Shown: positions 24,217 to 63,897 of the stretch, piece after piece
How positions within the stretch are numbered: the stretch's first letter is position 1
Layout of the letters: each line of letters opens with the position of its first letter
Assembly: GCA_963082975.1 (NCBI GenBank)
Contig: OY720350.1
Span: 186,001 to 250,000 of the forward strand
Length of the DNA: 64,000 nucleotides
Source: Labia minor
Taxonomy: Eukaryota; Arthropoda; Insecta; Dermaptera; Spongiphoridae
Direction: 5' to 3'
The notes under the pieces: generated by a model
Database searches by the model: none
Told to the model about the DNA's origin: nothing
Seen by the model: the letters and a program-made list of their open reading frames with translations, nothing else
Translations under genes and position numbers: made by a program

Positions 24217-24430
24217 ATGTCAGTTGTAATAGGGATGCAGTGGCGATCGCATGCGTGCCATTCAGGCTTGGCTGCCTGTCGCCTTTTAATTTTGTTACTT
24301 GTCTATTTTTGTTTCTTATTATTTGGAGCAGCACTATTTAGCAGTATTGAGGGTCCAGAGGAAAGAGCGCGGGTCCAGGAGTTACGAGACATCAGGGCAA
24401 ATTTTTTAGTCTTGCACCCCTGTGTATCTG
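24217..24430 (+). CDS. K2P channel alternative first exon 1a
   Basis: It encodes 71 residues plus one base, ending HPCVS before a GTAAGA donor (phase 1). The start at 24217 is the first ATG of the open frame. A second in-frame ATG follows at 24235. Residues from CRLLILLLVYFCFLLFGAAL form TM1, followed by SSIEGPEERAR and a helix leading to FLVLHPC, as in TWIK cap regions. No downstream exon specific to it occurs before exon 1b, so it should splice to the shared exon at 44534, making an aspartate codon at the junction. It could instead be the orphan first exon of a partly lost paralogue. Confidence 0.8.
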
Positions 24431-25867
24431 GTAAGAAGACTCACATTCACTTTCTCTCTTTCTATTCATTTCTCCTCTTTCCTCTTTCCTCTTTCCTATT
24501 TCCTATTTCCAATTTCCAATTTCCAACTAGTACCTATCACCAAATAAAATGAAAATAACCTTCGTTCCAGATTAAATAAATAAATATAATTTCAATTAGT
24601 TTTTTAAAATATATAAGTATTTATTTTTTTCAAAAAGATATTTTCTCTACTTTCAGTTTGCTCTAGTATATATTATCTACCATTTATAACAAATATAAAT
24701 AATTATAATAATTTAATAAATGTAAGCCAATCACATCAATGCATCCTATATAAATTTCAACATTTCACCTGTGTTTAATATTATTCATTAATATTTTATT
24801 ATCTGTGCTACTAAACCACTAATATGACCACCTTTATGAATATTAAGAAATTAATTTGTGATTCACAAATCATTAATAAGAAGAAAATTTATTTAAAAAA
24901 CTGCGCTGCTCAATTGAATTTGTTCTTTCAAAAGAAGAATATTACAAAAAATGTCTATTATATTACCATTCAAAATGTTTATATATGTAATATAAATGAA
25001 AATTAAATTTAAAAAATATAAAACTTAATTATTTTTTTTATTATTAATAAACACTTTTCTGGTCAACTCATAACTTTTGCTAAACTTAAAACACATTATG
25101 GTGTGTTAAATTTAAATATTAATTCAAAGGAGAAGAAAAAAAAAATAGAAAAAATATTCTTATATATTAATTTTAACAAACAACTTACAATTAGTATAGA
25201 AATATTTAAATTAATATGTAAGTGTCTAAGGAGTTTAATTCACACATTTTTATTTTAATTTCTAAATAAAAAAAAAAATTCTTTAATATATTTTCAAAGT
25301 TGGCATTTTATTTAATTTAATATTAAAAACGTTTCACTTTGGAACATTCTATGAGTATGTAAGGACCTAGGCGCCTAGGCCTATCAACCTTTACCTTGAA
25401 TTTCATGATCGGGGGCGCTACCGTTTTTATCAAATAACATCCCTTAACTTAGTGGATTACTTTTTAACCTTAACAAAGATGGAAAATTTTAAGTTCATAA
25501 GTAATCGGATAAGAGCTTGAGTGGTCGCGCGTTTCCATTAGTTTATTAACCTTTTCGATGATTGGAAAACCAATCGTCGGTAGTGCAATCCTTGATATCA
25601 CACATTTAATAATATACCAGTTTAGTATTAATAATAAATAAAATAATAATAATAATAACATAAAATTGAGAGCTAAAGATTCAAGTGAGGTCATTGCCAA
25701 ATTGGATCGATACTTTGCGGTAGAAAACGTAGGAGCAAAAAAGAAGATGAAAAAGAAGAAAAATAAATAAATTATGGTTTATCCAAATATAAATATTATA
25801 ATGAGTCAAGAGATATGTATATGTGTGTGAAGATTTATTAATGTATAGAATGTATACATACAAGAAC

Positions 25868-25920
<53 letters not shown>

Positions 25921-28900
25921 CTAAACCTTAAATAAGCATTAAAACATTATAATAATAAGTATATACTAATAAATCTAGTTTAATATAATAGTAAGTAAGC
26001 ATAGGGAATTTTTGCTTTATAATTTCATCTAGATATTCATATATATTTATTTTTTTAATATAAAAAAAAATAAGTTGACCTGTGGCCAGGCACAGAACCT
26101 ACCGACGGTTTGAAATAAATTAATTTCCAGCTACAGAAATAATCAATTTAAAATAATTTAAATATATCTATTAATGCAATAAAAAACAGATAGGCATATA
26201 ACATAAATATTTTTAATTTTATTTTATTTATAATATATAAGGAGGGGCTGGCTGTGACGTCATATAATTTTAAATTAATAAAAAACTAATGAAGATGATT
26301 TTTCCAGAGGATAAAACCAATACAAAGCGCATGATTGGTGGAGATATATAAATATATATATATATCTCCTCATGTGAAAACAATACCTCCCTTACTATTG
26401 TCGGTCAGTAATTTTTTTGTCGACTCTCACTTTTTCTAAATATGGGAAGGATCGATGAATTCAATTCATTTATTGAATTTTATTTATTTACTAGCTGCTC
26501 CGACCGCCTTCGGCGCTCTCCACACCTAGACGGGGGCTCCGCCCCCTGTACCCCCCGAGTGTCCCTATTCTGAGCTATAACCATCTAACTCCTACCCTGT
26601 CCCATTTCTCTCACGTTCCTTCCTACAATGTCCTCCCTGTTCACAATTGGTCTTCCACACGGACGTTTTCCAATCGAACTCCCCACCAATATATTTTTCC
26701 TCTCCCATTCTAGCCATGTGCCCTGCCGAACCCAGCCTTCTTTATTTTATAACCTATATCTAGAGATGCATAGAGGTCATGCAATTCCTTGTTATGCAGT
26801 CTCCGCTATTCCCCGGTGTCCTCATCTTTCTTTGGCCCATAAATCTTGGGAAGAATCCTTTTCTCAAATACTCTGAATCTACTCTCATCTCCCAGGGTTA
26901 TAGACCATGCCTCCCACCCATATAATATAACAGAAAAAATAATTGTTTTATATATTTTAATTTTGATCCCCTTTGATAATAATTTCCCGATTGCAACCTC
27001 GATTTAAATTCTTTGCAAATATTATTCGCTCTGATACTATTTATTTTGCATTATCACTATTAATTTCAAACCCCATCACTTTTCCTGCCTCGAAACCATT
27101 AATACAAACAAACAATTTTAGCTGGCATAATGAGATTAAAAAATAAAAAATATATAAACTTACCTGAAAATAATTAGATATTTATTTAATAAAATTAAAT
27201 TTTTAAGTAAATAAATAAATAAAATCAAAATTCAAAATTAATCAAGTAATAAGTTGACCTGTAGCCAGGTCCGAACCGACCGACGGTTTGAAATAAATTA
27301 ATTTCCAGCTACAGAAACAATTTCAAATAATTTTAATATATCTATTAATGTAATAAAAAACAGATATAAATATAACATAAATATTTTTAATTTTATTTTA
27401 TTTATAATATATAGCTGAAGTAGCCGGCGTTGCCCGTGATTATAATAAGGAGGCTGTGACGTCATGAAGGGCTGGGTGACGTCATATAATTTTAAATTAT
27501 GAAAAACATAATGAAGATGATTTTTCCCGAGGATAAAACCAATACATTGGTGGTGATATGTAAAAAAATCTCCTCATGTGAAATTTGGTGTGTAAACAAT
27601 ACCTCCCTTACTATCGTCGGTCGGTAAAAAAGGCACTCGAAATGTTTTAAATTATCTAAAAAAAACAATTATTAATATAAAAATACAAATAAAATGATCA
27701 AAAAATAAATAAAATTAAATTAAATAAATAAAACGTTTTAAATAGAAATACAAACTAATTGATATTATGAAAAACAATTTTAAACAAATGTATTTAATTA
27801 AATTAATAAATTTAAAAAATATTAAATGATATTTAGCTTAAATATAAAAATTAAAATAAAAAGAAATTACTTAAAAAAATTAAAACTATAATAATAATAT
27901 TAAAATATATATGAAATTACCTGAAAATAATTAGATATTTATTTGATAAAATTAATTATTTATCTTAAAAATATTTTATAATCTATAGAATAATTTAATT
28001 ATTTTAAAAAACGGCGGTAATCATTTTTTATCCCTAGCTGTGACGTCATCAATAAGAAAATGTAAAGAAAAGGGCTGTTTTTAGGGTTTTTCCGACAATT
28101 ATTCGATTTTTTCTCGCCGGAAAAACCATCCTTGGACTTCAACGAACATTTTAAAAAAAGAATTGTCAAAATTGGTCCAGGCGTTATTGAGTGATGCAAT
28201 TACAAAAGTCATTTTTATTTATAAGATTTTTAAGAAATTTACCATCCTATCTACCAGATTTATATATTTAAAAAATGAAAAACAAACAAACATAGCAGTA
28301 ATATTAGATATAATATTATATTCATAATAAATTATTTAGAAATAGGTTCCAGAGTTAGTTAGGCAATTTTTTTTTTTTTTTGTAAAAATCATTTAGAAAT
28401 AGCTTCAATTGAATATAAATATTATATTATAATTTGTTTGTCATTTAATTTAATTATCATAAAATTTAAAATAGATGTAAGATATTATTTTGTTATTATA
28501 AAGAATAGAAAAGGAAATGAAAAGTAAACTTATAAAGAAAAAAACATTTGATTTGTGTATTGTGGTTAAATCCATATTCTTATCTTAAACTTTATTCGTT
28601 ATCTCTTCTCTTTTAATTTCAAAAATAAATACGAAATCTATTTTAAAGTAGACTTTACTTATTTACTATTTGACACATAATAAAATAAACTGATACAAGA
28701 GAATCACACTAGTTTCCATTTACAATTAAAAAAATATTAATTAATTAATTAATCCAGTTAATATAATATAATATATTTAAAGGAAGATTATCTTTTTATA
28801 AAAGTATCATAGAAAATATACATGAAAAGATATTAATCAGAATTCCCATCTTAACTATTTACAAGATATTCAATATGTACCTATATATGTACATTATCTC

Positions 28901-31900
28901 GTACTATTTTTATTAATATAGTATGTATCATGTACCTACGTATATATGTATTATATATATTAATTGGGCACTTTGAACATGTATTATATTATAATTTAAC
29001 TTGAGATAACAATTGGTGACTTCATAATTCGAATAAAAAATGAGCTGGAGTGTCTCCACTTGACTATCTCGCAATTTGAATTGGATTATATATATATATA
29101 TATAAATAACATAATATATAATATAATTAAATTTAATTAATTAAGAATTATAAATTAAAATTAATAAATAATATTTATTAAACCAGGGCATGTTTGGCTC
29201 TTTCTTAATGGATATTTGTAATTAATTAATTAATATATTCCAAAGATGATGATGAGAGCGTTAAAAAATGAAAAATGAAATAAATTATCATAAAGTAGAT
29301 AACGTTTACTCGTAAAAATCAAATAATTTAATCCAAAAAAAAAAAACAAAAAAAAACATAAATAATTAATTAAAATATTAATTTGAATAGAAAGTGTGGA
29401 TAGAAAACAAACAAATAAAATAATATTTATAATTAAAGAGAATGAATAAAATACTTAATACTTATATAATGAATTTCCTGGCAAGGTGGACGGACACACA
29501 GCGGACCAACCGATCATATTCACTTTGCAATGGAAACTAAAAGATTTTATTAAAATAAATAAATTTTAATCCCATTTTTATTTATATTCTGTTTTTCCAT
29601 GAAATTTAACCGAATAGCTTATCGCACGATTAGGAAAAAAAAAATCATTACTTACTTACTGGAATTGTCCCTTTTACTTTTTATTTAAAACAAAATAATA
29701 TTATCTATATTATAATAATAATAATTTATTATATTTATTAAAAAAATAATTTAAAAAAGAATCAGATATTTATTAAATAAAATAAATAAATTATAAAATA
29801 TATTATATTTATAATATATATTTTAATAGATTATTGAATAAATAATTTATATTAAATAAAATTTTATTTTTAATGAATCCAAATTATCTGGTGAGATAGT
29901 AAAAATTTAAAATTCTTTAGACAATTAGAATTTTCATCACAATGATATACCTAAATATATATTATTATAAATTGTCCTTAATATAAAATTAAACCTAGAG
30001 ATTGATAGATAACTAACTATCTATGTATCTCTGTGGATTTATACGCAAGTCGAAAGTTCTTGGACGCAGCAACTCTATAGTAGTTGCCTCTCCAAACGTC
30101 ATCCTATCCTGAGCTACACCCATCCAACTCCTATTTTCTCTCATCTCTCTTATTCTTACCCCCCACCCCCCACCCCCCACTTCCTTGGTCTTCCAAGCGG
30201 ACGCATCCTAATCAATTTCCTGTCTGCCATTCTGCTTATCGCAACCTTCTCCATTTTATAACCCTAACTAACTATTTCTGAAGATGCATAGAGGTCATGC
30301 AATTCCTCGTAATACAGTCTCCCTTATTCCTCGGGTGAGATCATCTTTCTTTGTCCCATAAATGTTCGTCTCCCTAGGTCATAGACCACGCCTCACACTT
30401 ATATAATTCAACTGGCAAAATCATTGTTTTATATTTAATTTTAATTTTGATATCCTTTGATAATAATTTTGATGAAATAAGCACCCTCTAATGCATGATA
30501 ACAGACGTTACCCGATTGGAACCTCGATTTAAATTCTTCCCGAAAATTACTATCAAGACACTTTGCAAAATAAAAATTAAAAATTAAAAATGTTTAACTC
30601 ACATAAATGGCCAATTGCAAATATTGCTTCAAAAATCTCATTAAAATATTTATATAATATCATAAATCTTTTATTTACAATAAATACACAGATACACTTA
30701 TTAGCATAACTCATAGAATCTATTGATTGATTGAGTCTTTTGTCTCTTCTTCTTACATTGCAATTTAGTCTAAAATTCAACCCAAAATTCCCTGACACCA
30801 TCTTACTTAAAACAATTGTTCAGATAAAGCTGTATCAAATAAAAAAATAAATTAAATGTCATTTCGTAAACATTTGTTTGTTTTGTTTGTTTTTTGTTTT
30901 TTTTTTAAAAAAATTGATATATATATATATATATATACCTGTTCCTAACCTTTGTCTATGAATACTTTAATTGATAAAAAATAACTAAACACATTTAGGT
31001 ATCTTATTTTTTAATCATAAAGAAATAATTAATTATCCTTACAAGTTTATATATATATATATATATATATTAATAATAGCAACAATATTAATAAAATGAA
31101 TGATAATAATAATTGTATGAATATATGTCATTGGTCTCTGAACTATTGTTAATATACATATATTAATTATTTTAAACTACTGCATCAAAAAAAAAAGTAT
31201 TATATTTCATATATGTTATATAATATGTAAATTAATAATATCAAACCGCTTCTTGATAATTAATATAAAAAATAAATAAATAAAATAAAATTATAACATA
31301 CATTTGCTTATCTTTCTTATCTTTTTCTTTTTTAATATTGTTATTTTTGTTGTTGTTGTTGTTATTATTAATATTTGTGAAAGAAGGAGAAGGGAAAGAG
31401 ATAGAGAGAAATATTATATTTTATCAATTGTATGTAGAACAGCCAACATGAACACATCTACATTAGTTAATTTTATCTTTATATATATATATATAATCAA
31501 TCATTCATTGTATATGAAGGGGTAGTAGAGCAACAGAGGGGGAGTAGAATATATATATATATATATATAAGTAATTATAGAAATAAGATTTTAATGAGAA
31601 TAGTAGTGTTATTTGAAAAGTTTAGTAGAAGGGAGAGAGCGTTTGAAGTTTTCATTATTTTTATTCATTTACAAATGTTTATCCAATTATTTTATTATCA
31701 TGTATCATTTAAAGATTAATTAATTTATATTCATTCTATCATTTATTTTATTAGTTAATTATTTTCTTCTTTTTCTTCTTCTATCTTCTTCCTCCCTTCC
31801 ACCCCCCCCCCCTCACTCACACACACACACACACACACATTTTTTTCATTTATTCACTTTCTTCATTTATAAATTGGCAAATTAATAAATAAATGTGGTA

Positions 31901-32771
31901 GTAATTGGATAATAAATAAATTAATTTTAAATATCAAGAAAAAAAAGAAATGTTTTCAAATACAACAGCCTATATTCCCATTGATGGGTCAGATTATCAA
32001 CATCATCATCATTATCATCATTTAAAAAGATTATTTGGATTTCGTCGTAGTACAACACTTTTATTCCTTTTCATTTCTTTTTATGTAATATACCTAATAA
32101 TTGGTGCTAGTATTTTTACTATGCTTGAATATCCATTTGAAAAAGATTTAAGAACTACACTCACTACATGCAAGGCAAAATTTTTAGAAGAGCATCCATC
32201 TGTTACATGTAAGTCATTTTACAATTTATATACATATCTAATCTTATTACACTGTATACTACCATCAATTATATATACTATATAATATAGAGATAATAAA
32301 TGTTAAATATTGTTTATTTTTTGAAGAAAAAAAACATTTTAATCTTTTTTTTTTTATTTTTAATCCATTTGATACACTTATTTTATAATCTATCATCAAA
32401 TTAAATATAAATATTATTATTAATTATGAATATTATTAAAATTTATGTGAACTTGGTAAGGTTTGAACCTTCGCGAGCGCAAAAAGTACAAATACTTATT
32501 TATAATAGATTCAACAAATTTCTTGTTAACTATGCTTTATTATTTTGGGAAATTAAATAAAATGATAACATTTTTGAATAAATTAATGAATTTATATAAT
32601 CTTATGATTGTTTAAATACAAATTATAATTATAAAAATATAAAATTATATATATATATTTATATATATACATAGAATATTTTTTTTTTTTTTTATTTAAC
32701 TTCCAATTAAATACATTAATTTCACATCTGCCTTATTTAGGGCATTAGAAGAACATTTACAGGTTAAAACT

Positions 32772-32809
<38 letters not shown>

Positions 32810-35800
32810 CACAATAAGAAATAGAGGGGTATTATGAGGGGAGGATCAAGAAAGAAAGATATTAATGGGAGGGGAGGGGGGGGGATAGGACTAGACAGAA
32901 TTAAGATAGGAAAATAGGTGTTGAGGATATTATTTAGGGACAAGTAGAGAAGAGATGAGAAGATGGAGCGATTGACTTGAATCAAACCATTGAACCGGCC
33001 CATTAGTCGAAGGAGAATTGATTCTGTCGTGTATCAAGTCGTTAGACTTCTGGTCAGTAAGTTGTCTCGCTTTGTCGTTAACATGGTTTTGTAGTCTGTT
33101 GAGGTAGCGTATGCTAACGTGTTAACTGCACCTCCTCCGCCACAGTATACATAGAATATAGATATAAATTTATTATAAATAATAACGGTATAATCTAATG
33201 ATTTTTGATTTTATAGAATTACTAGCTGCTCAGAGCGCCTTCGGCGCTCTTCACACCTAGACGGGGGCTCCGCCCCCTGTACCCCCGAGTGGTACATAGT
33301 ATTTGGTGGTTGAAAGTAGTAAAAGGTTTTCATCCATTTTGTTTCAATCAGTATATTACATAAAACATTCATTTCTTTTTGTGTTCTTATTTAAAAAATA
33401 TATTTTAATTTAATCACTATATTAATTATATATATTATTATTGTATATGTTATATCTATCTACCTATGTGGCTCAAAGATACTCGAAAGTTCTTAGCCGC
33501 AACAACCACATTTCTCCAAGTGTCCCTATCCTGAGCCCTTGTTCCATCTCTCTTACGTCCCTTCCTACGCGTCATTGGTTTTCCAAGCGGACGTTTTCCA
33601 ATTGGTCTTCCCACCAATATCTTTTTCCTCTCCCATTCTAGCCACGTGCCCTGCCTATCGCAGCTTTTTCCCTTTTATAACCCTAACTATTTCTGAAGAT
33701 GCAGAGAGGCCATGCAATTTCTTGTTATGCAGTCTCCCCCATACCCGGTGACCTCATCTTTCTTTGGCCAATAAATGCAGGGAAGAATCCTATTCACAAA
33801 TACTCTGAATCTACTCCCATCTCCAAGGGTCATAGACCATGCCTCCCACCCATATAATTCAACAGGCAAAATAATCTTTTTATATATTCCCTTTGATAAT
33901 AATTTTGAAGAGATAAGCCTCTTTATTGAAGATAACAGGCGTTTCCCGATTGCAACCCCGATTTAAATTCTTCTCAAATATTATTATGTTATAACTAGCT
34001 GCTCAGAGCGCCTTCGGCGCTCTTCACACCTAGACGGGGGCTCCGCCCCCTGTACCCCCGAGTTGTACATAGTATTTGGTGGTTGAAAGTATTAAAAGGT
34101 TTTCATCCATTTTGTTTCAATCAGTATATTACATAAAACATTCATTTCTTTTTGTGTTCTTATTTAAAAAATATATTTTAATTTAATCACTATATTAATT
34201 ATATATATTATTATTGTATATGTTATATCTATCTACCTATGTGGCTCAAAGATACTCTAAAGTTCTTAGCCGCAACAACCACATTTCTCCAAGTGTCCCT
34301 ATCCTGAGCCCTTATTCCATCTCTCTTACGTCCCTTCCTACGCGTCATTGGTTTTCCAAGCGGACGTTTTCCAATCGGTCTTCCCACCAATATCTTTTTC
34401 CTCTCCCATTCTTGCCACGTGCCCTGCCTATCGCAGCTTTTTCCCTTTTATAACCCTAACTATTTCTGAAGATGCAGAAAGGCCATGCAATTTCTTGTTA
34501 TACAGTCTCCCTCATACCCGGTGACCTCATCTTTCTTTGGCCAATAAATGCAGGGAAGAATCCTATTCTCAAATACTCTGAATCTACTCTCATCTCCAAG
34601 GGTCATAGACCATGCCTCCCACCCATATAATGCAACAGGCAAAATAATCTTTTTATATATTCCCTTTGATAATAATTTTGAAGAGATAAGCCTCTTTATT
34701 GCAAGATAACAGGCGTTTCCCGATTGCAACCCCGATTTAAATTCTTCTCAAATATTATTATCCTTCGTGATTACATTCAATTTTTCTACATATTCAAATT
34801 CTACATTTTGTATCTTAAGATTTTGTATGTCAATACTCTTCCTCTTTGTTACTAAATATTTTTTCTTATCACTATTAATTTCAAACCTCCATTAAATTTT
34901 CCTCGCTATCTGTAATTGCAATTGCCGAATCTCCTATTATATTTAAGTCGTCTGAGTAACATAATATTTTACAATTGATTTCCGCATCTTATTCTTTCTT
35001 TACTACCTTCAAGAGAAATTAGAAGATTGAAAATTTGAAAAAGTTTATCCGGATCTATTGAGTTATGCGTATGTTTTACTAAAGTCTACAAATAATTAGT
35101 GAACAGAAATATTGAATTCGCGGTTTTGTTCCTAATATCTGTCATAATGAAAATATCTTAATTAATGTTGGTCGATTTGGCCTGAACCCGCAATGATATC
35201 TCCTAATATTTCCTCCGCCTATAGTTTATAAGTATTGTATATGTTATAATAGAGTATAATATTTCTTGATCATTACATTTTGGTATTTTATTTTCATTGC
35301 TAGATTATTATTGAATATTTTTAATTATAATGAAACTTGAGAAAATGCAAAAATAGAGACTTGAGACAATTTATAAAAATTAACGGTATAAAACTATAGA
35401 TAAATGACCAATATATACATTCATTAATAGTATTAATTTAAATTAATTGATTTATTTGTTTTTTTTATTATTAAGTTCATTTATTAATTTTTTTAGATCA
35501 TAGTTATTTTCCTTAAAAGAAACTTAAATTCTGTGGTGCTAGGGGATTTGAAAATTATTCGTCGCAATATGAAGATTTCGCTTACAGTTTCTGTCATGTC
35601 CGACCTCCATCCAACAGTTATTTTCTGTTAAGTTTTTTGCTTCTCTTAATCATGTGATCTATATATTTAATTTTTTTTGATTCATTATAATAAAATTTAA
35701 ACAAATAAAAATTTTTACTTTGTTAATTTATATAAATTTCAATATAAACTGATTGTGAGTGATACGCTTAGCCAATACTCTGAATATTTTGTGTACAAAA

Positions 35801-36729
35801 ATATTGAATGTTCTTAGCGAGATTTGATATAATGTTGTACGATTTGTCCTAAATCTGAATTAGAAGAAAATTATAAATTGCATTAAAATGAGACCTTTTA
35901 GAATAAATTATTTAATTGAAATGTTATTTAAATATAAGAATTTAAAAAAATATTATATTCTTTGTTTGGCAATTGTTATTTAATTATGTGCAACATGATT
36001 CGACTTGCACAGAGCATCGTTATTTTTTATTAATATCACATAATAAAAATGAATCTTTTAAACATAATAAATAAAAAAGACATTTTAATAAATTTAAAAA
36101 ATATACCCAATTTAAAAATGTCAAAAATTTAAAACAACTTTATATCATCATATTTTAATTTTTATATAATATATATATATTTAGTAATTAATAATAGAGT
36201 AATTAAATTAAAATAAAAAACAAAGATAATATAATTCAGTCATTTTAATTCAGGTTAAATAATATTTTTTTTTATTATTCAATGATAAAATTTATATATT
36301 ATTATATATATATTATAGAAAAGAAGAAATATTCAATTAAATAAAAAATAATTTAAGATAAAAATATGATCTAATAAATATTTTAATTAAATTGAGAACT
36401 TTTAGAATAAATTATTTAATTGAATTGATATTTGTATATTAGAATTTAAAATAAAAAGGGAAATATTATAATAATTCTTCGATTGGGAATCTCTATGATA
36501 ATTCATTGTTTGAAATGATTCCGCTAGGCCGACAGTGAGCCGCGAGCTGCTCTTGAATGAACAACACGGAGAATTATATAAACTTTAAAAAATTAATTTC
36601 TGCGGTTATTGATAAGATATTAATAAAATTTATAGCCTATGTTACTCTAGAGGTATATAAGAATATTGTGATGTAATTTCAAAGAAATCGGTTCAGCCAA
36701 TTCTGAGTCTATAAAATAGTAATTTTCCG

Positions 36730-36800
<71 letters not shown>

Positions 36801-39800
36801 GTGAAAAATTCTAAAGTCACTTTTGGATTCTAGAGGTCATGAAACGCGAAGATATGCAAAAATTTTTAAATTCTGAGCAATGTGCAGACAAAAACCTTTT
36901 TTTATATATATAGATAGTGAAATCTATAAAACTATAGATCATAGGTTCTTAAACTTATGTACTCCACGGACCCCCACTTGAAAAAATTTTTTTTGACGGA
37001 CCCCCATCACAACTTTAGGTACTTTTCGTCATTTTATTAATTAATTTCTGGCTTACGATCTCATAAGGACAAGGATATATGATGAATATTTCTAACAGTG
37101 ATTGGTGAATAACGATTTTTTTGCATATTGTAGAACACATTTTATTAGAAATTATAATATTGAAGAAAGAAAATACAAACATTGTCATAGCAACAAATCT
37201 CACAAATTATAATGGGTACTTACATTAAATTCATATAAATATTTTATAATTTTTTTCAGAAAATATTAAATAAGAAATATTTTAAAAAATAACTGCATCT
37301 ATCTCATTAAATATAACTTACATATTTAATGAGATGTATGCAGTTGTTTTCTTGAAACAAGAATCTCAATATCTGGCTTAATATTGGAAACTTTTAATCT
37401 AAGATCCGGCTCTACATTTAATTTGTTTCTATATTTAGACTTAATATAAAATAGTACCGAAAAAGCTTGTTCGCATAAATATGTTGTGCAGAATGGAATC
37501 AAGTGTTGAAGTGCTTTATTTGCAAGCGCAGGATAATCTGACCTGAGAAGTAACCAAAAGTTGCTCAATTCAGTTTTGTTAAATTTTAGTTTATAAGTTG
37601 TATCACATGATAATTCCACGAGAATATCTTGTTCAGGTGCAGATAAATGTTTAGCATTTGTAATTTCCATATTAAATGGATCTCTGATCCAGTTATTGCA
37701 AGGATCAGGAGTAGAAAAATACTTCCTGAAGTTGCTTTTCAAAGTAATTAAATGTTCAACAAATAATTGACGCGTTTGATTAAGCAATTTTTCACTGGAG
37801 CTTTCTATGAAATCATTGAGAGTTGGAAAAGACTCATATACACCGTTCTGGATGCGTTTCGACCACAAGTCGATTTTTTTAATCATTGCTTCTATTTTAT
37901 CTTCAACTTTAAATATATTTACAACAGTACCTTGCAGGCTCAAATTAAGTTCGTTCAATTTTGTAAAAATATCAGTCAAGTAAGCCACCTTAGCTAACCA
38001 GATAAAATCATTGAAACATTCGGTCAGTTCAAAATGCGCATCTATTAAAAACAATCGTATTTCATCTCGAAGCTCAAAAAGGCGAATGAGTACTTTCCCG
38101 CGGGACAACCAACGTACATCTGTATGTAATAATAAATGTGTATGTTGACTACCCATTTCCTCACACAAAATTTTAAAAACTCTGGAATTAAGTGGACGAG
38201 CCTTAATGAAATTGACAATTTTAACTACTTCGTCTAATGTTCTTTTCAAATCTGGTGACATATTTTTGGCTGCTAATGATTCTCTGTGAATGCAGCAATG
38301 ATTCCAAACAACCTGAGGCGCAACATTTTTAATAAGAGCAATCAATCCAGTTCTTGTACCTGACATTGCACGAGCACCATCAGTGCAAATTCCAACACAT
38401 TTTGGCCACTCTATTTCATTTTCGGTTATAAAATTATTCAAACTGTTAAATATGTCATTAGCTGTCGTTCGTGAAGGTAGTGAATCACAAAACAATACAT
38501 CTTCTTGTATTTGATTTTCAAACTCATATCTAATGAAAGCTAACAAATTGGCATTATTAGTGACATCAGTACTTTCATCCAATTGTAATGAGTAATAGTG
38601 ACTTTTGCGCACTCTCGATATTAATTCTTCTTTTATATTACATGACATGTCTTCAATCCTATTCTTAACCGTATCATTTGATAATGAAATCAAATTTATA
38701 TCGTTTGCTGCTTTAGTTCCTAACATTATATTTGTAATTACTTTTGTAGCAGGAAGAATTAATTGCTCTGCTATATTATGCGGCTTTCCTGCTTTAGCAA
38801 TAAGTAGAGCTACTTCATATGATGCCATTACTGCTTTCTTACTCATACCACCAGATCCCGTCTTAACCATCAATTTCTGACTTGAATTAAGTTCTTCTTT
38901 TTTCATTTTAAAAAATTCGATAGACTTACTAACATGCTCGCTGTGCTTTGTTTGTAAATGACGTCTGAGATTAGCAGGTTTCATACTTTCATTGGATAAA
39001 CTTTCCTGACATAGAACGCAGACTGGTCTTTCCACATCATTGTTGCAAATATAAGTAAATCCAAATGATAAATAATCATCCGAATATTTTCTAGTTTTGC
39101 GTTTCTTGGTAGAGTTTGCTGTTGATGCCTCATCATCTGATTCTTTCCGTTTCTGTGTTGAACCAGTTTGTAGCCAACGATCCATTTTATGGAGTAATTT
39201 ATTAACATTGAACTACAATAATATAAATATAATATAAATATAATATAAATATAACGAATTATTATTTACTAGCTATGTTTTAATATGATTTTAAATGAAT
39301 GTTTTAATATCATTTTAAATGAATGTTTTAAATCATTTTAATAAATGTTTTAAATCATTTTAAATAAATGATTTAATATCATTTTAAATGAATATTAATT
39401 TATACAATAAATATATTTCGTAATTTGATTCTAAAATATTATTAATTTCGTAATTTGATTCTAAAATATTATTAATTTCGTAATTTGATTCTAAAATATT
39501 ATTAATTTCGTAATTTGATTCTAAAATATTATTAAAATAAATATTTTTTATTCATAAAACTAACTTATACTTACTCTCAAAAACAGCCTTTCTGGGAAAT
39601 TGCAAAATGTGTTTAGTGTTTTTATAAAATAATGATCATGCAAATTACACTAAAAATTAAAAAAAATTATTAGCTATAATAAACTATTATTAGCTATAAT
39701 TTAATTATAATTAATTAAATTAATAAAAATAATTTAAAGATACAACTCGTTGAGAAATGAACTTATAATTAACATTTGCTTTAAAACTGTTTAAAACCCC

Positions 39801-41972
39801 AGAGTGGACGCTGACAATTTGGGTTTTTCCGGGTAAGACTGTCCCCTCCCCTGGTTTTCCCCAATAACAAAGTGAAAGAAAATTCCCTTATATGCCTCCC
39901 CTTCCGAGCCCCTAAGAGGGGTTATTTTAAAGGAACAATCGAAAAATGATTTTAAATGAATGAATGGATGAAAATTCAAATTTTATATATAGTTTTTTAT
40001 ATATGTTTATTTATTCACAAAAAATTAATTGACATAATTATCAATTTAATAAAATAAAATAGTATTATTAATAGTATTAAATTATAGCCGTAATTCTCTA
40101 GGAGGATATAGTTAAACAATGAACTTTAAATATTTATATATGTATATATTTTTACGATGATTTATTTCCGAGGACCGCGGACCCCCAGTAAAGGCTTCGC
40201 GGACCCCCAGGGGTCCGCGGACCACAGTTTAAGAACCACTGCTATAGATAAATGACCAATATATACATTCATTAATAGTATTAATTTAAATTAATTGATT
40301 TATTTGTTTTTTTTATTATTAAGTTCATTTATTAATTTTTCTAGATTTTAGTTAATTTCCTCCCTTAAAAGAAACTTATCTAATTCTGTGGTGCTAGGGG
40401 ATTTGAAAATTATTCTTTGTAATATGAAGATTTCGCTTACAGTTTCTGTCATGTCCGACCTCCATCCAACAGTTATTTTTCTCAAGTTTTTTGCTTCTCT
40501 TAATCATGTGATCTATATATTTAATTTTTTTTGATTCATTATAATAAAATTTAAACAAATAAAAATTTTCACTTTGTTAATTTATATAAATTTCAATTTA
40601 AACTGATTGTGAGTGATACGCTTAGCCAATACTCTGAATAATTTGTGTACAAAAATATTGAATGTTCTTAGCGAGATTTGATATAATGTTGTACGATTTG
40701 TCCTAAATCTGAATTAGAAGAAAATTATAAATTGCCTCCTCTTCCAGCCCAATTCATTTACCCACCCATGTTGCATATGGCATCTAAATTCCTTAAAACT
40801 CCGTTTTTTTAATTTAAAATAGAAGGAGAGAAAGAGTTTTAAATTATATTCGAATAGTCTATATATTCTATATATCAGTATTTTTTTTCTGAATTTAATA
40901 ACAAGTTGATTTTAAAAATTTTCCATTCTTAATGCATATGATTGATTACATGTGTTAAAATTTAAAAAAATTCAAATATTCTAATTTTTATATTTATATA
41001 CAATTTAATATTATTTTTTATTAATATCATATCAAAAAAAGAGAATTTATTAAAAATTAAAAATAAAAAAAGAAGCCTATTAATAAAAAATTGAATGGTG
41101 ATTTAATTATTTTATTAAATTAATTAAAATGAGACCTTTTAGAATGAATTATTTAATTGAAATGATATTTAAATATAAGAATTTAAAAAAATATTATATT
41201 CTTTGTTTGGCAATTGTTATTTAATTATGTGCAACATGATTCGACTTGCACAGAGCATCGTTATTTTTTATTAATATCACATAATAAAAATGAATCTTTT
41301 AAACATAATAAATAAAAAAAACATTTTAATAAATTTAAAAAATATATCCAATTTAAAAATGTCAAAAATTTAAAACAACTTTATATCATCATATTTTAAT
41401 TTTTATATAATATATATATATATTTAGTAATTAATAATAGAGTAATTAAATTAAAATAAAAAACAAAGATAATATAATTCAGTCATTTTAATTCAGGTTA
41501 AATAATATTTTTTTTTTATTATTCAATATTAAAATTTATATATTATTATATATATATTATAGAAAAGAAGAAATATTCAATTAAATAAAAAATAATTTAA
41601 GATAAAAATATGATCTAATAAATATTTTAATTAAATTGAGAACTTTTAGAATAAATTATTTAATTGAATTGATATTTGTATATTAGAATTTAAAATAAAA
41701 GTGAAATATTATAATAATTCTTCGATTGGGAATCGCTATGATAATTAATTGTTTGAAATGATTCCGCTAGGCCGACAGTGAGCCGCGAGCTGCTCTTGAA
41801 TGAACAACACGGAGAATTATATAAACTTTAAAAAATTAATTTCTGCGGTTATTGTTGACATATAAATAAAATTTATAGCCTATGTTACTCTAGAGGTATA
41901 TAAGAATATTGTGATGTAATTTCAAAGAAATCGGTTCAGCCAATTCTGAGTCTATAAAATAGTAATTTTCCG

Positions 41973-42023
<51 letters not shown>

Positions 42024-45000
42024 GTGAAAAATTCTAAAGTCACTTTTGGATTCTAGAGGTCATGAAACGCGAAGATATGCAAAAATTTTTAAATTCTGAG
42101 CAATGTGCAGACAAAAACCTTTTTTTATATATATAGATAGACTATATTCCCCCCAAGACAGTAAACTAATTAAGTCTTATTTAATGCTATTGAATTCTCT
42201 AGAGAGACAAGAATATGAAATGCATACATAAATGAAAAAAAAAACAAACAAATTAATTAATACACAATTAAACAAATAAAACGTTATAAGATTAAAAACG
42301 AAAGAGTATAAAGAAACATTTATTTTTAATGTAATTAATCTGATTCTAATTAAAGTAAGCACTTAAAATCTTACTTTTTCGCTTAGGATAAGTCCTTTAT
42401 AAATAATTCATTATGAGTATTAATAGTAGTAATTGTAAAATTATTTAATAGTAACGCGGAAATGTTTAAGTTTCTATTCAATTAAATTAAATTAAATATA
42501 TATATATATATATATATAAAGTAAATAAAATACTCTACTTTAATATCGAAATAGAATAATCTATTTCATTTCTTAATAATATTTACTATATTTTCTTTTA
42601 ATGCACAACTTTGCTTCCGCCATTTTGCAATAGAGTACTCTAGCGGTAAGTGGTAGTCGAAATAAATAGATCGATGATGTCATACAAAAGGGTTAGGTAT
42701 TTGTAAACATAACGCCATTGAAATATTAGTCGATTTGTGTTTGCATCGTCAATTTATTCTCCATTAAACATGTCAGTTTACGAGTCAATCCTCGTCATTT
42801 GTGGGAGGTTTTAATTTTCTGTTTTAAGAAGAAGAAGAAGAAGAAGAAGAATCGAATGCTATTAAATACCTATGAGTGAGGCCGCTATTAGTGAAAGAAA
42901 GGGCCGAGAGGCGTTTCAACGCTTCAAGAACGGTGATTTTGACGTCGAAGACAAGCATTGGGATGGAAGTATGGTTTTCGAAGATGCAGAATTGATCAAG
43001 ACTCGTGTCAAACGCGACAAGAGTAGTGTATTATGAGTGAAACAATCACAGGTGATCGTTATCGAACGCTATAAATGCGTTTGAGCCGAGCATTGAAAGA
43101 CAAACGGCCGTATTAAAACGAGAGACATGATAAAGTGATTTTACAGCATGACAATGCTCGACCCTATGTTGCGAAAGTGGTCAAGACATACTTGGAAACG
43201 TTGAAATGGAAAGTCCTACCTCACCCGCCATATTCTCCAGATGTTGCTCCCTCGGAATATCACTTGTTTTGATCAATGGCACTCGGCCTGGCTGATCAGC
43301 ACTTCTGGTCATATGAAGAATTAAAAAATTGGATCGATTCGTGGATCGCTTCAAAAGATGACCAGTTTTTTAAACGCGGGATTCGTACGCTGCTATCTTA
43401 TGTATTTATTTTAAATAATATGATAATTGATCTTAAATATTCATTGTTCATAAGGAATATTTTTTTTTAAAGTACCGAGCGGCGGCTTGGTGAACCAGGT
43501 ACTTATTATTAAATAAAAAATACAAGTAATTATGGTCTAAACAAATAGAAATCAATAAATATAAGATAAAAGAGACAAATCGTAGTAAAACTTCCGTTAA
43601 GATAACTAATTATTTATTTATTTATTTATTTACCAAATAAACATACAGAATCATAAATAAAGATAAATCATATGATTTTTAAATTAATATTGAATTTTCT
43701 TATTTGTAAATATTGGAGATAAATGTTTAATTCAATATTCTAATTATTATTATAATATAAAATATGTTTTTGTATATGTATTAGGCGTAAAAAAATAAAA
43801 AAGATAAATAGGAACAAATTAATCACCAACCTTTGAGGATATGGAAGATTAATAAATTTTAATTAATCTTACATTTTATTTTTTATTTTATTTTATTTTA
43901 TTTTATTTTAATAAGGTAAAAGCAAGGAATAGAACGCATTAGCTCTGCCTCGAAAACTAAGCCTTTTGGCGTGGGGAAGGTATTGGGGGATATGATAGAT
44001 AGATATTTTTACAATTTATTTATTAATTAAATCATATATTTTTCACTTTCACTATATCGCAATAATTAAGCATTAGATGTTGACACCATATATATATATA
44101 TATATCTAGTATATGTTTAACTTATGTTATTTAAACTAAAATTAAACTTAAACTTAATATAAAGTTTTATAAGAGTAATTTTGGTAAAGTTTCAAATTTA
44201 TTGATATCCCTACAATAACTAGTAACTATATATTGAATAAAAAAAAAATGGAATTTTTTGAAAAAAATGTTTGTTTTTTTCCTTATTTATTTTACTGAAT
44301 TATTAAATGGTTTGCTAAAACAACATATATCATAGATAAACTTAAAATATTAATTTTGTTTAATTATCTATCACACAATACTGTATCCAACACTTATTCT
44401 CTTCCACTTATAGAAGAAAGAGGCCAGATATATAAAAGTTTTTTTTTTTTTTATATTTATATATAATATGAAATTTTAATATGTATTTAAGAAATTAATT
44501 ATTAATTTGTTGTTATATTTATGATTATTCTAGATGAAGCACTTGAAGATTTATTGGAAGTCGTTGTGAAAGCTAACAATAGGGGCGTCTCTGCAGCAAG
44601 GAATGTGTCTGGAGAATCTAACTGGAGTTTTGGACAATCATTATTCTTTTCTAGTACAGTTGTCACCACAATTGGTAAATTATTATAATTATTGTTATTA
44701 AATTTATTTTATCATAAATCAATAAAAAAACTAAATATTTTATGTTCGTTTTTGTTAATCCTATAGAATTTATTAGGTATTATATTATTATATACACGTA
44801 TATTCAAGTAAATATTTTACAGTGCAAAAACAAAAAATACATAAACTATGCGATATTAGGTAAAACGGAGGGATATGGCGCGGTTAGGGATATATCTCGA
44901 AAACTAAACCTTTTGGTGTGGGGAAGGAAGGCATTAGGAGGACAATAGTAGCCAAATGAAGCGGGTATACCTTATTTATTGTTTTGTCCATCATCTTGAA

Positions 45001-46526
45001 GATCAACACAAGCAAAATTTCATCACACTCTTTAAAATTAATATATTAATACTTATTTATTCACATCTCTCTCTCTCTGTTTACTATTTGTAAGTCTTTT
45101 TCTAAAATTGTGCGAGGGATATGGCATGCGTTTTATCTTTGTTTAACATTGCAGAATTGAACCGCCCAAAACAATTTAGTAAAATATTCATGGTTACAGA
45201 CTTTTGTAAATATATTATTTAAGTTAAATACATTTTTTTTTCTTAAATTTCTTTAACTTAACTTAAATATTTGAACGTTTCACATTTATGAGTTTATATT
45301 TTTGGTTTACATATAATTTCCCAAAAACAATATCCCTCACTTTGCTTCTCTCAATATCACCACCCCTGTTAGAAATAATTAAGTATTACCGAAAAGTTAA
45401 CTTTTTTTAATTTTGTAAATTTTAAAAGTTCTTATTTTAAGAATAAGAATATAAAGCTCTCATTTTCATTCTAATAGTATGCTAGCTACCATTAACTAAC
45501 TCCAATAATCATGTCATAATAGATATTAACGTTTGAGAATTGGCAAAAATCCGAATTGTGCGTCATACCCCTCGTGTTTACCTTATCTACTATGCATAGA
45601 AATATTACCTATATATTATAATTTGTTTGTTTGTGTTTGTTTTTGATACTCTCTTTTATATAGGTTATGGCCATGTGACACCATTAAGTAAAGAAGGGAA
45701 AATCTTTTGTATCCTGTATGCAATGTTGGGCATTCCATTAACACTTGTGTTAATGTCAGCCCTTGTAGAACGATTAATGATACCAACAACATTCTTTTTA
45801 CAATATTTAAATAGCAAATTGGGACACCTTTATCAGGTAGTTTTCTCTTCTCTCTTCTCTTCTCTTCTCTCTAATTATATTATCATATTTATTTTATTCC
45901 TTTTCGTTTTTTTTTTCCAGCCTTTTAATATACGTTTATTGCATTTATTGATTGTTCTTTTGGTGTTGTTGAGCGTTATATTTCTCATTCCTGCTGCCAT
46001 TTTTGCTTATCTAGAACCTGAATGGGATTTTCTAGATTCACTTTATTATTGTTTCATTTCATTGACTACGATTGGCCTTGGTGATTATATTCCAGGTGAT
46101 ACACCAATGCAACCATATCGGCCAATCTATAAAATAGCAACTACAGGTAATAAATAAATAAATATTTATAAAAATGTATAAATAAATATATTTATTCTTT
46201 TTCTTTTCTTTCTTTCATATATGACACACACAGTTTATCTATTGATTGGATTAACTTTAATGATGTTGGCGTTGACTGTATTTTATGATATTCCACAATT
46301 AAATATTGGTATCTTTTTTCTAATGCGTTCGGATGAGAAACAATCGGATCCAGAAAAGTTGCACCTCCAAGCGCCTGGAATTGTACCTACAAAATATGGC
46401 CAAGATGTTGTTACCTGTGCTGAGAGTCCGGGTGGTGTTCATCGTCCTGCAATTGTACGAATTAAAAGTAGACGTGAGGATAGTCCAAGTCCAGAAGACA
46501 CTACACCAGTACATGCCAGACCATAA
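24217..46526 (+). CDS. TWIK-type two-pore-domain K+ channel (whole gene)
   Basis: This gene encodes a plasma-membrane leak potassium channel that works as a dimer. Coding exons are 24217-24430 (1a) or 31950-32208 (1b), then 44534-44674, 45664-45836, 45921-46146 and 46234-46526. All junction phases agree (1, 1, 0, 1). Predicted lengths are 348 (with 1a) or 363 residues (with 1b), close to vertebrate TWIK1 (about 336). The order is TM1, an extracellular cap helix region with NRGVS and an NVSGESNWSF stretch, pore 1 (TTIGYGHVTP), TM2, TM3 (LLIVLLVLLSVIFLIPAAIF), pore 2 (LTTIGLGDYIPG), TM4 and a short cytoplasmic tail ending HARP. The GLGDY in pore 2 and the overall match favour the TWIK subgroup. 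The first introns (over 12 kb) are packed with transposons. Confidence 0.92.
24431..26070. other. Intron DNA with microsatellites
   Basis: It is AT-rich, with a compound (AT)n(AG)n tract at about 25869-25920 and a less AT-rich part at 25360-25420 (GGACCTAGGCGCCTAGGC) that looks like a small repeat remnant. No exon was recognised between the two alternative first exons. Confidence 0.4.
26071..26410 (+). repeat. Repeat family A, internally deleted copy 5
   Basis: It keeps both ends of family A (start AAGTTGACCTGTGGCCAGG, end ATTGTCGGTCAGTAA) and the TGACGTCA block, but lacks about 250 bp of the central and right part. Confidence 0.75.
26490..27095 (-). repeat. LINE copy 6, 3' part, inverted
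   Basis: It begins with the complement of the LINE 3' terminus (ACTAGCTGCTCCGACCGCC, then CGGGGGCTCCGCCCCC) and runs back through the GHVARM and WEAWS coding blocks into degraded sequence. The plus-strand open frame at 26628-26876 is a shadow. Confidence 0.8.
27249..27626 (+). repeat. Repeat family A, internally deleted copy 6
   Basis: Both family ends are present. The middle is deleted and carries an extra short GC-richer stretch at 27412-27450 (AGCTGAAGTAGCCGGCG). Confidence 0.75.
27627..29037. other. AT-rich intron DNA with an unknown repeat segment
   Basis: A less AT-rich stretch at 28010-28210 (containing CTAGCTGTGACGTCATCAA and CGCCGGAAAAACCATCC) looks like a repeat remnant but has no other copy in this window. 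The rest is simple AT-rich DNA. Confidence 0.35.
29038..29195 (+). repeat. Repeat family C end fragment
   Basis: It shares GTGTCTCC, CGACTATCTCGCAA-like and AAATTAATAAATA blocks with 15560-15660 (inverted) and 61672-61805. The GC-rich palindromes are missing. Confidence 0.5.
29196..30009. other. AT-rich intron DNA, nothing recognised
   Basis: Only AT-rich simple sequence was seen. Confidence 0.4.
30010..30560 (-). repeat. LINE copy 7, 3' part, inverted, old
   Basis: It is a diverged inverted copy of the LINE C-terminal coding region, recognisable by the complements of the CAAGAACTTTC, GGACGCATCC and AGACCATGCCTCAC-like blocks. It is more diverged than the copies at 33-35 kb. Confidence 0.75.
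30561..31949. other. AT-rich intron DNA upstream of exon 1b
   Basis: Several (TA)n tracts (about 30918-30938, 31050-31070, 31548-31570) and a CA-repeat (about 31816-31840) precede exon 1b. The promoter of the 1b transcript should lie here. No clear core promoter motif could be assigned. Confidence 0.4.
31950..32208 (+). CDS. K2P channel alternative first exon 1b
   Basis: It encodes 86 residues plus one base, ending HPSVT before a GTAAGT donor (phase 1). After the ATG, a cytoplasmic N-terminus with a histidine-rich run (HHHHYHH) leads to TM1 (TTLLFLFISFYVIYLIIGAS), then FTMLEYPFEKDLRTTL and FLEEHPSV, very like the FLEEHECLS of TWIK1. Joined to exon 44534 it gives a tyrosine at the junction, where 1a gives aspartate. 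Exons 1a and 1b therefore encode different N-termini, TM1 and cap starts. Confidence 0.9.
32209..33220. other. AT-rich intron DNA with an unexplained segment
   Basis: (TA)n lies at about 32773-32802. A more complex segment at 32975-33150 (TCAAGTCGTTAGACTTCTGG followed by CGCTTTGTCGTTAAC) is not AT-rich noise and might be a SINE-like or processed remnant. No tRNA fold could be confirmed by eye. Confidence 0.35.
33221..33990 (-). repeat. LINE copy 8, 3' part, inverted
   Basis: It starts with the complement of the LINE terminus (ACTAGCTGCTCAGAGCGCC) and stops at TATTATTATG, directly before the next copy begins. It is nearly identical to the first 770 bp of copy 9, at an offset of about 773 bp. 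Small open frames on both strands are remnants. Confidence 0.85.
33994..35890 (-). repeat. LINE copy 9, longest copy, inverted
   Basis: It runs from the GC-rich 3' terminus back through the C-terminal blocks, the reverse transcriptase catalytic region (CYSDDLNIIGDS near 34925-34965) and further 5' sequence to about 35890. It is used here as the reference for the LINE. It still has frameshifts, so it is not an active copy as written. A continuous composite arm follows to about 36917. Confidence 0.8.
35891..36917. repeat. Composite repeat arm, copy 1
   Basis: AT-rich sequence leads into a conserved segment with GAGCCGCGAGCTGCTCTTGA, ATCGGTTCAGCCAATTC, a long (ACAG)n array (about 36730-36800) and a poly-T/(TA) end. 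Such a tail is typical of the 3' end of RTE-type retroelements. It is repeated almost identically at 41100-42140. Confidence 0.75.
37326..39185 (-). CDS. hAT transposase (ZBED/SCAND3-like), intact
   Basis: This 619-residue uninterrupted protein resembles the BED-finger hAT transposases related to vertebrate ZBED5/SCAND3/FAM200. It binds the element ends and catalyses cut-and-paste transposition. A BED-type zinc finger is formed by C56, C59, H76 and H81 (VCVLCQ, then LRRHLQTKH). The RNase H-like catalytic fold shows SLQLDESTDVTN, then GICTDGARAMSGTRTG and the CCIHRESLAAK segment. The C-terminus carries CEQAFSVL, part of the hAT dimerisation region. Length and domain order are complete. The start lies about 1.05 kb inside the right end. 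Short plus-strand frames across it are shadows. It could be an active autonomous copy or a very recent insertion. Confidence 0.93.
   Translation of the reverse strand: MDRWLQTGSTQKRKESDDEASTANSTKKRKTRKYSDDYLSFGFTYICNNDVERPVCVLCQESLSNESMKPANLRRHLQTKHSEHVSKSIEFFKMKKEELNSSQKLMVKTGSGGMSKKAVMASYEVALLIAKAGKPHNIAEQLILPATKVITNIMLGTKAANDINLISLSNDTVKNRIEDMSCNIKEELISRVRKSHYYSLQLDESTDVTNNANLLAFIRYEFENQIQEDVLFCDSLPSRTTANDIFNSLNNFITENEIEWPKCVGICTDGARAMSGTRTGLIALIKNVAPQVVWNHCCIHRESLAAKNMSPDLKRTLDEVVKIVNFIKARPLNSRVFKILCEEMGSQHTHLLLHTDVRWLSRGKVLIRLFELRDEIRLFLIDAHFELTECFNDFIWLAKVAYLTDIFTKLNELNLSLQGTVVNIFKVEDKIEAMIKKIDLWSKRIQNGVYESFPTLNDFIESSSEKLLNQTRQLFVEHLITLKSNFRKYFSTPDPCNNWIRDPFNMEITNAKHLSAPEQDILVELSCDTTYKLKFNKTELSNFWLLLRSDYPALANKALQHLIPFCTTYLCEQAFSVLFYIKSKYRNKLNVEPDLRLKVSNIKPDIEILVSRKQLHTSH
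39416..39540. repeat. 30-bp tandem repeat, four units, within the hAT
   Basis: Four near-identical units of TAATTTGATTCTAAAATATT plus ATTAATTTCG start at 39421, 39451, 39481 and 39511. They lie between the transposase start and the right end of the element, with shorter ATTTTAAATGAATGTTT-like repeats just to the left. Confidence 0.9.
40242..42140. repeat. Composite repeat, copy 2
   Basis: It repeats 35390-36917 almost base for base, in the same orientation. About 360 bp at 40735-41095 are absent from copy 1 and match 7800-8165. The (ACAG)n array (about 41974-42023) is shorter than in copy 1. The hAT lies at its left edge, with LINE sequence on both sides of the insertion. Confidence 0.85.
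42141..42600. other. AT-rich intron DNA, nothing recognised
   Basis: A (TA)n tract lies at about 42497-42520. No other feature was seen. Confidence 0.4.
42620..43410 (+). pseudogene. Mariner relic, internally deleted
   Basis: The 5' part reads EAFQRFKNGDFDVEDKHWDG, and after a deletion LQHDNARPYVAKVVKT, then PYSPDVAPSEYHLF, a stop and SMALGLADQHFWSYEELKNW. These are mariner transposase blocks. The first catalytic region is missing, the third catalytic Asp position is Glu (APSEYH), and stops interrupt it. A (GAA)n run near 42826-42850 precedes it. It belongs to a different mariner lineage from the intact copy at 21629. Confidence 0.85.
43471..44533. other. AT-rich intron DNA with repeat remnants
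   Basis: A short family C-like palindrome occurs at 43471-43503 (AGTACCGAGCGGCGGCTTGG) and a fragment of family D at about 43913-43990 (CCTTTTGGCGTGGGGAAGG). The last 40 bp form the polypyrimidine tract and acceptor of channel exon 2. Confidence 0.5.
44534..46526 (+). CDS. K2P channel shared exons 2 to 5
   Basis: Exon 2 (44534-44674) encodes the cap and the start of pore 1, ending TTIG. Exon 3 (45664-45836) completes GYGHVTP and TM2. Exon 4 (45921-46146) carries TM3, an IPAAIF stretch and pore 2 (TTIGLGDY). Exon 5 (46234-46526) gives TM4 and a tail of about 70 residues with KSRREDSPSPED, ending at TAA 46524-46526. Splice sites are GT-AG with polypyrimidine tracts. Introns are 989, 84 and 87 bp, the first nearly filled by a family D repeat. 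Both pore signatures are canonical, so the channel should be potassium-selective. The open frames at 45627-46157 and 46221-46526 reflect these exons. Confidence 0.92.
44859..45582. repeat. Repeat family D (MITE-like), copy 1
   Basis: The ends GGTAAAAC and GTTTACC are inverted, next to TTA on each side, which would fit a TWA-type PIF/Harbinger target duplication. The interior includes CCTTTTGGTGTGGGGAAGG and ATCAACACAAGCAAAATTTC. The same landmarks occur at 51169-51609. Confidence 0.6.

Positions 46527-63863: not shown

Positions 63864-63897
<34 letters not shown>

Follow-up and report, generated by a model that had tools for sequence, protein, structure and literature searches.

A TWIK-type K2P channel gene of Labia minor with two candidate alternative first exons of probably old origin

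The stretch of DNA considered here, called the window, consists of 64,000 nucleotides from Labia minor (Dermaptera; GenBank assembly GCA_963082975.1, contig OY720350.1, positions 186,001 to 250,000 of the forward strand) and has a GC content of 27%. On its plus strand it carries one complete gene of the TWIK/KCNK1 type, encoding a two-pore-domain potassium (K2P) channel. The gene contains two first exons, 1a and 1b, followed by the common exons 2-5 (44534-46526). Both first exons encode a cytoplasmic N-terminus, the first transmembrane helix (TM1) and the beginning of the extracellular cap. The features of the gene, in window coordinates, are as follows.

24217-24430, plus strand: exon 1a, candidate alternative first exon; short cytoplasmic N-terminus, TM1, cap helix 1, apex HPC-V-S; ends in phase 1
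31950-32208, plus strand: exon 1b, candidate alternative first exon; longer cytoplasmic N-terminus (His-rich stretch, then FGFRRST), TM1, cap helix 1, apex HPS-V-T; ends in phase 1
44534-44674, plus strand: common exon 2; cap helix 2, pore helix 1, start of the first selectivity filter (TTIG)
45664-45836, plus strand: common exon 3; filter 1 GYGH, TM2
45921-46146, plus strand: common exon 4; TM3, second pore loop (TTIGLGDY)
46234-46526, plus strand: common exon 5, coding part; TM4, cytoplasmic C-terminus, stop codon at 46524-46526

The original prediction had placed both first exons here, ending in phase 1, and the coordinates and open frames agree with it. Both exons end in GT donors. The donor of exon 1a, CTG/GTAAGA, matches 7 of 9 positions of a simple consensus, and that of exon 1b, CAT/GTAAGT, matches 8 of 9. 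Exons 2-5 have AG acceptors throughout, and all of them except the last have GT donors. Joining to exons 2-5 yields open frames of 348 amino acids with 1a and 363 amino acids with 1b. The computed junction codon into exon 2 is GAT (Asp) from 1a and TAT (Tyr) from 1b, the two residues that had been expected. Exon 1a lies 7.7 kb upstream of 1b; the introns leading to exon 2 are 20.1 kb long from 1a and 12.3 kb from 1b. The GC content of third codon positions is 0.42 in 1a, 0.14 in 1b and 0.26 in the common exons. The Pfam domain Ion_trans_2 is matched twice in each splice product, and both filter motifs, TTIGYG and TTIGLG, are there. The extracellular histidine following GYG, H122 of TWIK-1, is kept in the sequence of exon 3 as GYGH.

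The start of 1a translation can be refined by comparison. In Cryptotermes (P0006) and Schistocerca (P0007) the 1a protein starts close to Met7 of the open reading frame (ORF) given above, and thus position 24235 may well be the initiator. The 1a proteins of Bacillus (P0011) and Clastoptera (P0021) have a methionine at the same place, yet their reading extends further upstream. Counts of CpG did not point to a promoter: the 200 bases of exon 1a contain 7, which is ordinary for the window, where 3.3% of bins have at least 10. A search of Rfam produced no match.

The 120 best homologous proteins, used as tblastn queries against the window (cut-off E 0.01), matched only four zones, at 24.2 kb, 31.9 kb, 44.5 kb and 45.7-46.5 kb. 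Exon 1a was matched by 64 of the 120 queries (best E 4.5e-14), exon 1b by 86 (best E 3e-15), exon 2 by 119 and exons 3-5 by all 120. Since homologues match both 1a and 1b, these are not chance ORFs. Profiles were constructed from the 1a and 1b sequences of other species, the window sequences being outside the training sets. Each window exon prefers the profile of its own type: 1a scores 74.7 bits with the 1a profile and 58.2 with the 1b profile, 1b scores 82.5 bits with the 1b profile and 55.3 with the 1a profile. Type-specific residues were tallied in 83 1a and 85 1b rows; these tallies are partly circular, as the labels come from profiles partly trained on the same rows. TM1 starts with Arg in 97% of the 1a rows and with Leu in 82% of the 1b rows; the residue just before the Glu of the E-x-P site is Ile in 92% of 1a and Leu in 72% of 1b; the position equivalent to TWIK-1 residue 53 is Ile or Val in 82% of 1a and Arg or Lys in 83% of 1b. 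The window exons follow their own types at all three positions, with Val in 1a and Arg in 1b at the last one. The Pro after TM1 (P47 of TWIK-1) and the Glu are retained in both window first exons, this Pro being present in 98% of the rows of each type.

The common part of the window protein is 66-78% identical to the 25 best relatives shown, including those of the termite Cryptotermes (78%), Timema (75%) and locusts (74%). The gene looks like an orthologue of the arthropod genes annotated as "potassium channel subfamily K member 1/6-like" with isoforms X1 and X2 (P0018/P0057 in Nilaparvata, P0028/P0033 in Tribolium), which have the same pair of N-termini, the same junction and the same constant part. 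Among solved K2P structures, the Nilaparvata protein P0057 matches human TWIK-1 (KCNK1) first (5.3e-70), followed by KCNK6 (2.6e-60) and KCNK2 (2e-45).

Such isoform pairs, already present in public annotation as X1/X2, were collected from 184 different proteins, the union of the best 120 of 957 and the best 120 of 692. Near-identical constant parts were found in 44 pairs, of which 14 were dropped because their N-termini were alike, 5 because they repeated a retained gene and 3 because an N-terminus was cut or odd. The remaining 22 pairs, each with one 1a-like and one 1b-like start, come from locusts, bugs, beetles, Lepidoptera, a barnacle, a crab, ticks and a branchiopod-like crustacean. Fifteen of them belong to single named species (Clastoptera, Nilaparvata, Halyomorpha, Anoplophora, Tribolium, Coccinella, Harmonia, Photinus, Pectinophora, Plutella, Plodia, Epargyreus, Choristoneura, Leptidea and Pollicipes) and seven combine two related species or records (Schistocerca, Diabrotica, Spodoptera, Papilio, Rhipicephalus, the branchiopod-like P0110/P0101, whose 1b groups with Daphnia in the 73-exon tree below, and Scylla). 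Thus related species keep both exons, a check that the original prediction had proposed, and its main claim, that alternative first exons of one K2P gene exchange the N-terminus, TM1 and the start of the cap, is strongly supported by these 22 parallels elsewhere.

In 19 of the 22 pairs the identity of the two isoforms starts exactly 44 residues ahead of TTIGYG, just past the cap apex. The exceptions are Tribolium (49, as flanking residues happen to agree), Papilio (35, two species) and the Scylla pair (18). The window isoforms become identical 43 residues before this motif, because exon 1b ends in T and produces Tyr where other pairs share the residue. The junction residue is common to both isoforms in 19 of the 22 pairs, and the Asp/Tyr difference looks local to the window. 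From the filter to the C-terminus, 14 of the 15 single-species pairs are fully identical; in Plutella 232 of 234 residues coincide. The two Clastoptera records are listed without a genome contig; UniProt entries of this type are presumably derived from transcriptomes, and if so, they provide direct transcript evidence for both isoforms in one species. A further protein, P0008 of Papilio machaon (516 amino acids), has two successive 1b-type TM1 modules in its N-terminal part, which may reflect an additional 1b exon in tandem in this butterfly or an error in the gene model.

One possibility is that only one first exon functions in L. minor and the other is a silent or very rarely used relic, both having been used in its ancestors. 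In favour of this, the Tyr at the 1b junction departs from the other pairs. However, the open reading frame, the donor, the phase and the residues specific to the type are preserved in both exons, as are Pro and Glu behind TM1, whereas an unused exon in AT-rich sequence would be expected to acquire stop codons. We consider a relic improbable.

The relative age of the pair was addressed in two ways. In a label-free test, the cross-order pairing of 1a with 1a and 1b with 1b outscores the within-gene pairing of 1a with 1b in 186 of 207 gene comparisons, and 175 of 959 cross-order triangles are inconsistent, half being the chance expectation. A maximum likelihood tree of 46 exons (23 pairs including that of the window, 60 columns) separates the 23 1a exons from the 23 1b exons with support 97/93, and the split is present in 96% of 200 bootstrap trees. 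These counts and this tree are relied upon here, as a label-based shuffle test favours itself, the orientation of each pair being set by likeness to the window. A larger tree of 73 exons has a branch (95/91) with 37 rows, the 1a side, from a scorpion, a spider, horseshoe crabs, ticks, a millipede, crustaceans, insects, molluscs and Lingula. The other side holds the 1b exons of a horseshoe crab, ticks, crustaceans and insects, together with human TWIK-1, set as the outgroup. TWIK-1 itself scores 59.9 bits with the 1a profile and 56.0 bits with the 1b profile, too close for an assignment to either type. The pair most likely goes back to one old duplication, older than the split of chelicerates from crustaceans and insects, although the tick evidence for 1b is the weaker half of this dating. 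Many recent duplications of exon 1 could in principle produce similar pairs in other species, and indeed the lepidopteran 1a exons are divergent and two decapod second exons do not group with the other 1b exons. However, across orders like matches like better than within a gene, and the tree of 23 and 23 exons that separates the types covers insects, the barnacle and the tick. Repeated recent duplication is thus very unlikely.

Several observations weigh against the reading of two ancient alternative first exons in one gene. In the 73-exon tree the decapod 1b-type exons P0154 (crab) and P0151 (Macrobrachium) stand beside the 1a exon of the window on long branches, and the labels are kept to a single change in only 6% of 200 bootstrap trees. 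The 1b exons of some groups are nearer to the 1b than to the 1a exons of other orders in a limited share of comparisons, 12 of 22 in the tick, 14 of 22 in the barnacle and only 4 of 22 in the crab. Decapod-like N-termini with the pattern YWxYLFxGAxxFSxIEGP (P0146, P0149, P0151, P0153, P0154, P0167) fit neither profile well, and the similar P0148 and P0155 score as 1a; thus the second exon of decapods may be of different origin, perhaps a third type of exon, or else a 1b that evolves rapidly. Many isoforms in other species have automatic names (X1/X2/X3) and are perhaps predictions. Finally, when residues 1-80 of the 1a product were used in a protein search, none of 124 candidates reached E 0.001; a full-length search with the 1b product did return relatives.

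A second downstream exon set for 1a was sought in the window and in the complete assembly (604 Mb, 71 contigs). With exons 2-3 as the query, the exons of the window were recovered at 94-98% identity (exon 2 at 98%), and nine other places, probably other K2P genes, at 33-55%. The best match of exon 1a was exon 1a itself; 1b followed weakly, at E 0.10, and a single place on a different contig at E 0.95. No further downstream K2P exons were detected in the window by tblastn with the 120 homologues, and neither query revealed a second downstream set for 1a in the genome; thus exon 2 at 44534 is the only one found, as had been noted. The alternative offered with the original prediction sees 1a as what remains of a second K2P gene, most of which was lost. 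On this view the lost gene stood in tandem, and 1a has ceased to be joined to exon 2. It might explain the distance of 7.7 kb, the strongly different TM1 and the unlike third-position GC content, but it is very unlikely and was rejected, because no second exon set was found, 1a is intact in its start, frame and donor, and 1a-type and 1b-type starts are joined to the same constant part in 22 pairs, from ticks to moths.

Taken together, these data make us confident that the window contains a single arthropod K2P gene of the KCNK1 (TWIK) type, whose two alternative first exons are ancient. By comparison with the isoform pairs, it is very probable that two versions of the channel are made from it.

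The place of the exon border in the protein was derived from AlphaFold2 models of the two Nilaparvata isoforms P0018 and P0057 (mean predicted local distance difference test scores, pLDDT, of 78 and 76). Helices extend over residues 12-60 and 66-81 in the 1a isoform and over residues 16-64 and 70-84 in the 1b isoform, forming a two-helix extracellular cap between TM1 and pore 1. Ten-residue pLDDT means are 81-95 over helix 1 but fall to 49-79 in much of cap helix 2. For both models the first structural match is human TWIK-1 (3ukm), with TMt 0.86 and 0.83. The split codon, where the identity of the isoforms begins, corresponds to residue 66 in 1a and residue 70 in 1b, that is, to the border between cap helices 1 and 2. 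As this border falls in the apex loop, each first exon is predicted to supply a whole module consisting of the cytoplasmic tail, TM1 and cap helix 1.

The two modules differ in the cap cysteine. The last cysteine of window 1a aligns with C69 of TWIK-1 (HPC), whereas window 1b has serine at this place (HPS). In the 23 pairs including that of the window, the cysteine is present in 20 of the 1a exons (absent from Tribolium, Pectinophora and Plutella) and in 7 of the 1b exons (locust, three bugs, barnacle, crab record, tick). Among the rows labelled by profiles, with labels that are partly circular, it is found in 78 of 83 1a and 26 of 87 1b rows; 17 of the 187 rows received no label, Lepidoptera are strongly represented in the 1b set, and two 1b rows counted as lacking the cysteine, P0026 and P0088, have doubtful trimming. 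The 1b exons without it are those of the window, of the branchiopod-like pair and of all six beetle and all eight lepidopteran pairs. The lacewing Chrysoperla, in contrast, has it in its 1b-type protein (P0016). Thus the cysteine seems to have been lost from 1b more than once. The N-terminal parts differ as well. In the profile-labelled rows their median length is 59 amino acids in 1a and 104 in 1b, and a basic RR[S/T/N] motif precedes TM1 in 29 of 87 1b rows and 2 of 83 1a rows. This motif of 1b could serve for phosphorylation or retention.

As summarized in PMC4906011, C69 links the subunits of TWIK-1, and its mutation stopped this channel in the 1996 work cited there. According to the same source, the cap cysteine is not conserved in all K2P channels, and its change left TASK-2 function and the TWIK-2 and TREK-1 dimers unharmed; since these mutants tolerate its loss, the change may matter little here as well. 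For TWIK-1 at low pH, PMC9184524 describes a rise of the cap by about 4 A with P47 as the hinge of TM1 and cap helix 1, as part of pH gating.

The proposed mechanism is as follows. Transcription would start upstream of either 1a or 1b, producing an mRNA with the respective first exon joined to the one available exon 2, the phase being alike in both cases. The choice of the start would select the cytoplasmic tail, TM1 and cap helix 1 placed on a constant pore. The 1a isoform is expected to form a disulfide-linked dimer with a short tail, and the 1b isoform a dimer with a longer tail and a basic RR-S/T motif before TM1, in this insect devoid of the cap disulfide. In many insects the choice of the start would then set whether the dimer is covalently linked. 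In this way a single locus could provide channels that differ in trafficking, in their choice of partners or in gating that depends on the cap. From this arrangement we infer two separate promoters, expression in this species, the trafficking difference and the other effects. A more specific and rather doubtful extension is a promoter switch common to arthropods, with the cysteine of 1a under constraint and that of 1b lost several times (in beetles, moths and butterflies, the branchiopod-like crustacean and this insect), so that the locus would offer locked and unlocked dimers with different TM1-cap hinges, and 1b would be freed for other K2P partners or for a different gating by extracellular pH.

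The N-terminal variants of mammalian TREK-type K2P channels have an altered cytoplasmic tail and are not known to have an altered TM1 or cap helix 1, and to our knowledge other K2P isoforms likewise differ in cytoplasmic tails. A literature search by title and start of abstract, with most subscription journals outside its scope, yielded nothing on K2P alternative first exons that change TM1 or the cap, and no account of the annotated arthropod isoforms. The gene twk-40 of C. elegans also has alternative upstream first exons, and its promoters and isoforms appear to differ in behavioural effects (PMC9049526). However, in the account given there the extra exons lengthen the N-terminus, the 415- and 436-residue forms sharing a 393-residue channel, and TM1 and the cap are not exchanged. 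Human TWIK-1, the first structural match of the Nilaparvata models and the first sequence match of P0057 among solved structures, is similar to the window protein in GYGH of the constant part, which in TWIK-1 holds the pH sensor H122, and in the equivalents of P47 and C69 kept in 1a. Unlike TWIK-1, the window has two first exons, a 1b exon without the C69 equivalent, and Ile in place of the filter residue Thr118. This Ile of TTIGYG in filter 1 is invariant in 54 aligned relatives, and arthropod KCNK1 may thus be free of the filter instability ascribed to Thr118.

Some other ORFs noticed in the window are listed below.

21703-22788, minus strand: mariner-type transposase ORF of 361 amino acids (Transposase_1, HTH_48), 1.4 kb upstream of exon 1a
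33687-33962 and 34460-34747, minus strand: two near-identical ORFs about 770 bases apart, perhaps retroelement tails
37326-39212, minus strand: ORF of 628 amino acids, located in the intron that separates 1b from exon 2; its matches to hAT dimerisation and BED-like domains are weak and do not reach the curated cut-offs; it looks like a hAT/ZBED-type transposase
63584-63868, plus strand: ORF that lies downstream of the channel gene and matches Methyltransf_28; we take it to resemble NDUFAF7

In this gene the first membrane helix and half of the cap would be exchanged as a module while the pore is unchanged, and the two versions seem to have persisted from a time before insects, crustaceans and ticks diverged. 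As the hinge between TM1 and the cap and the rise of the cap act in TWIK-1 pH gating and C69 links the subunits, the locus would be a natural experiment on TM1, the cap and the cap disulfide, with species that keep or lack the 1b cysteine at hand. Studies of insect KCNK1 that clone a single isoform would see only a part of the products of the gene.

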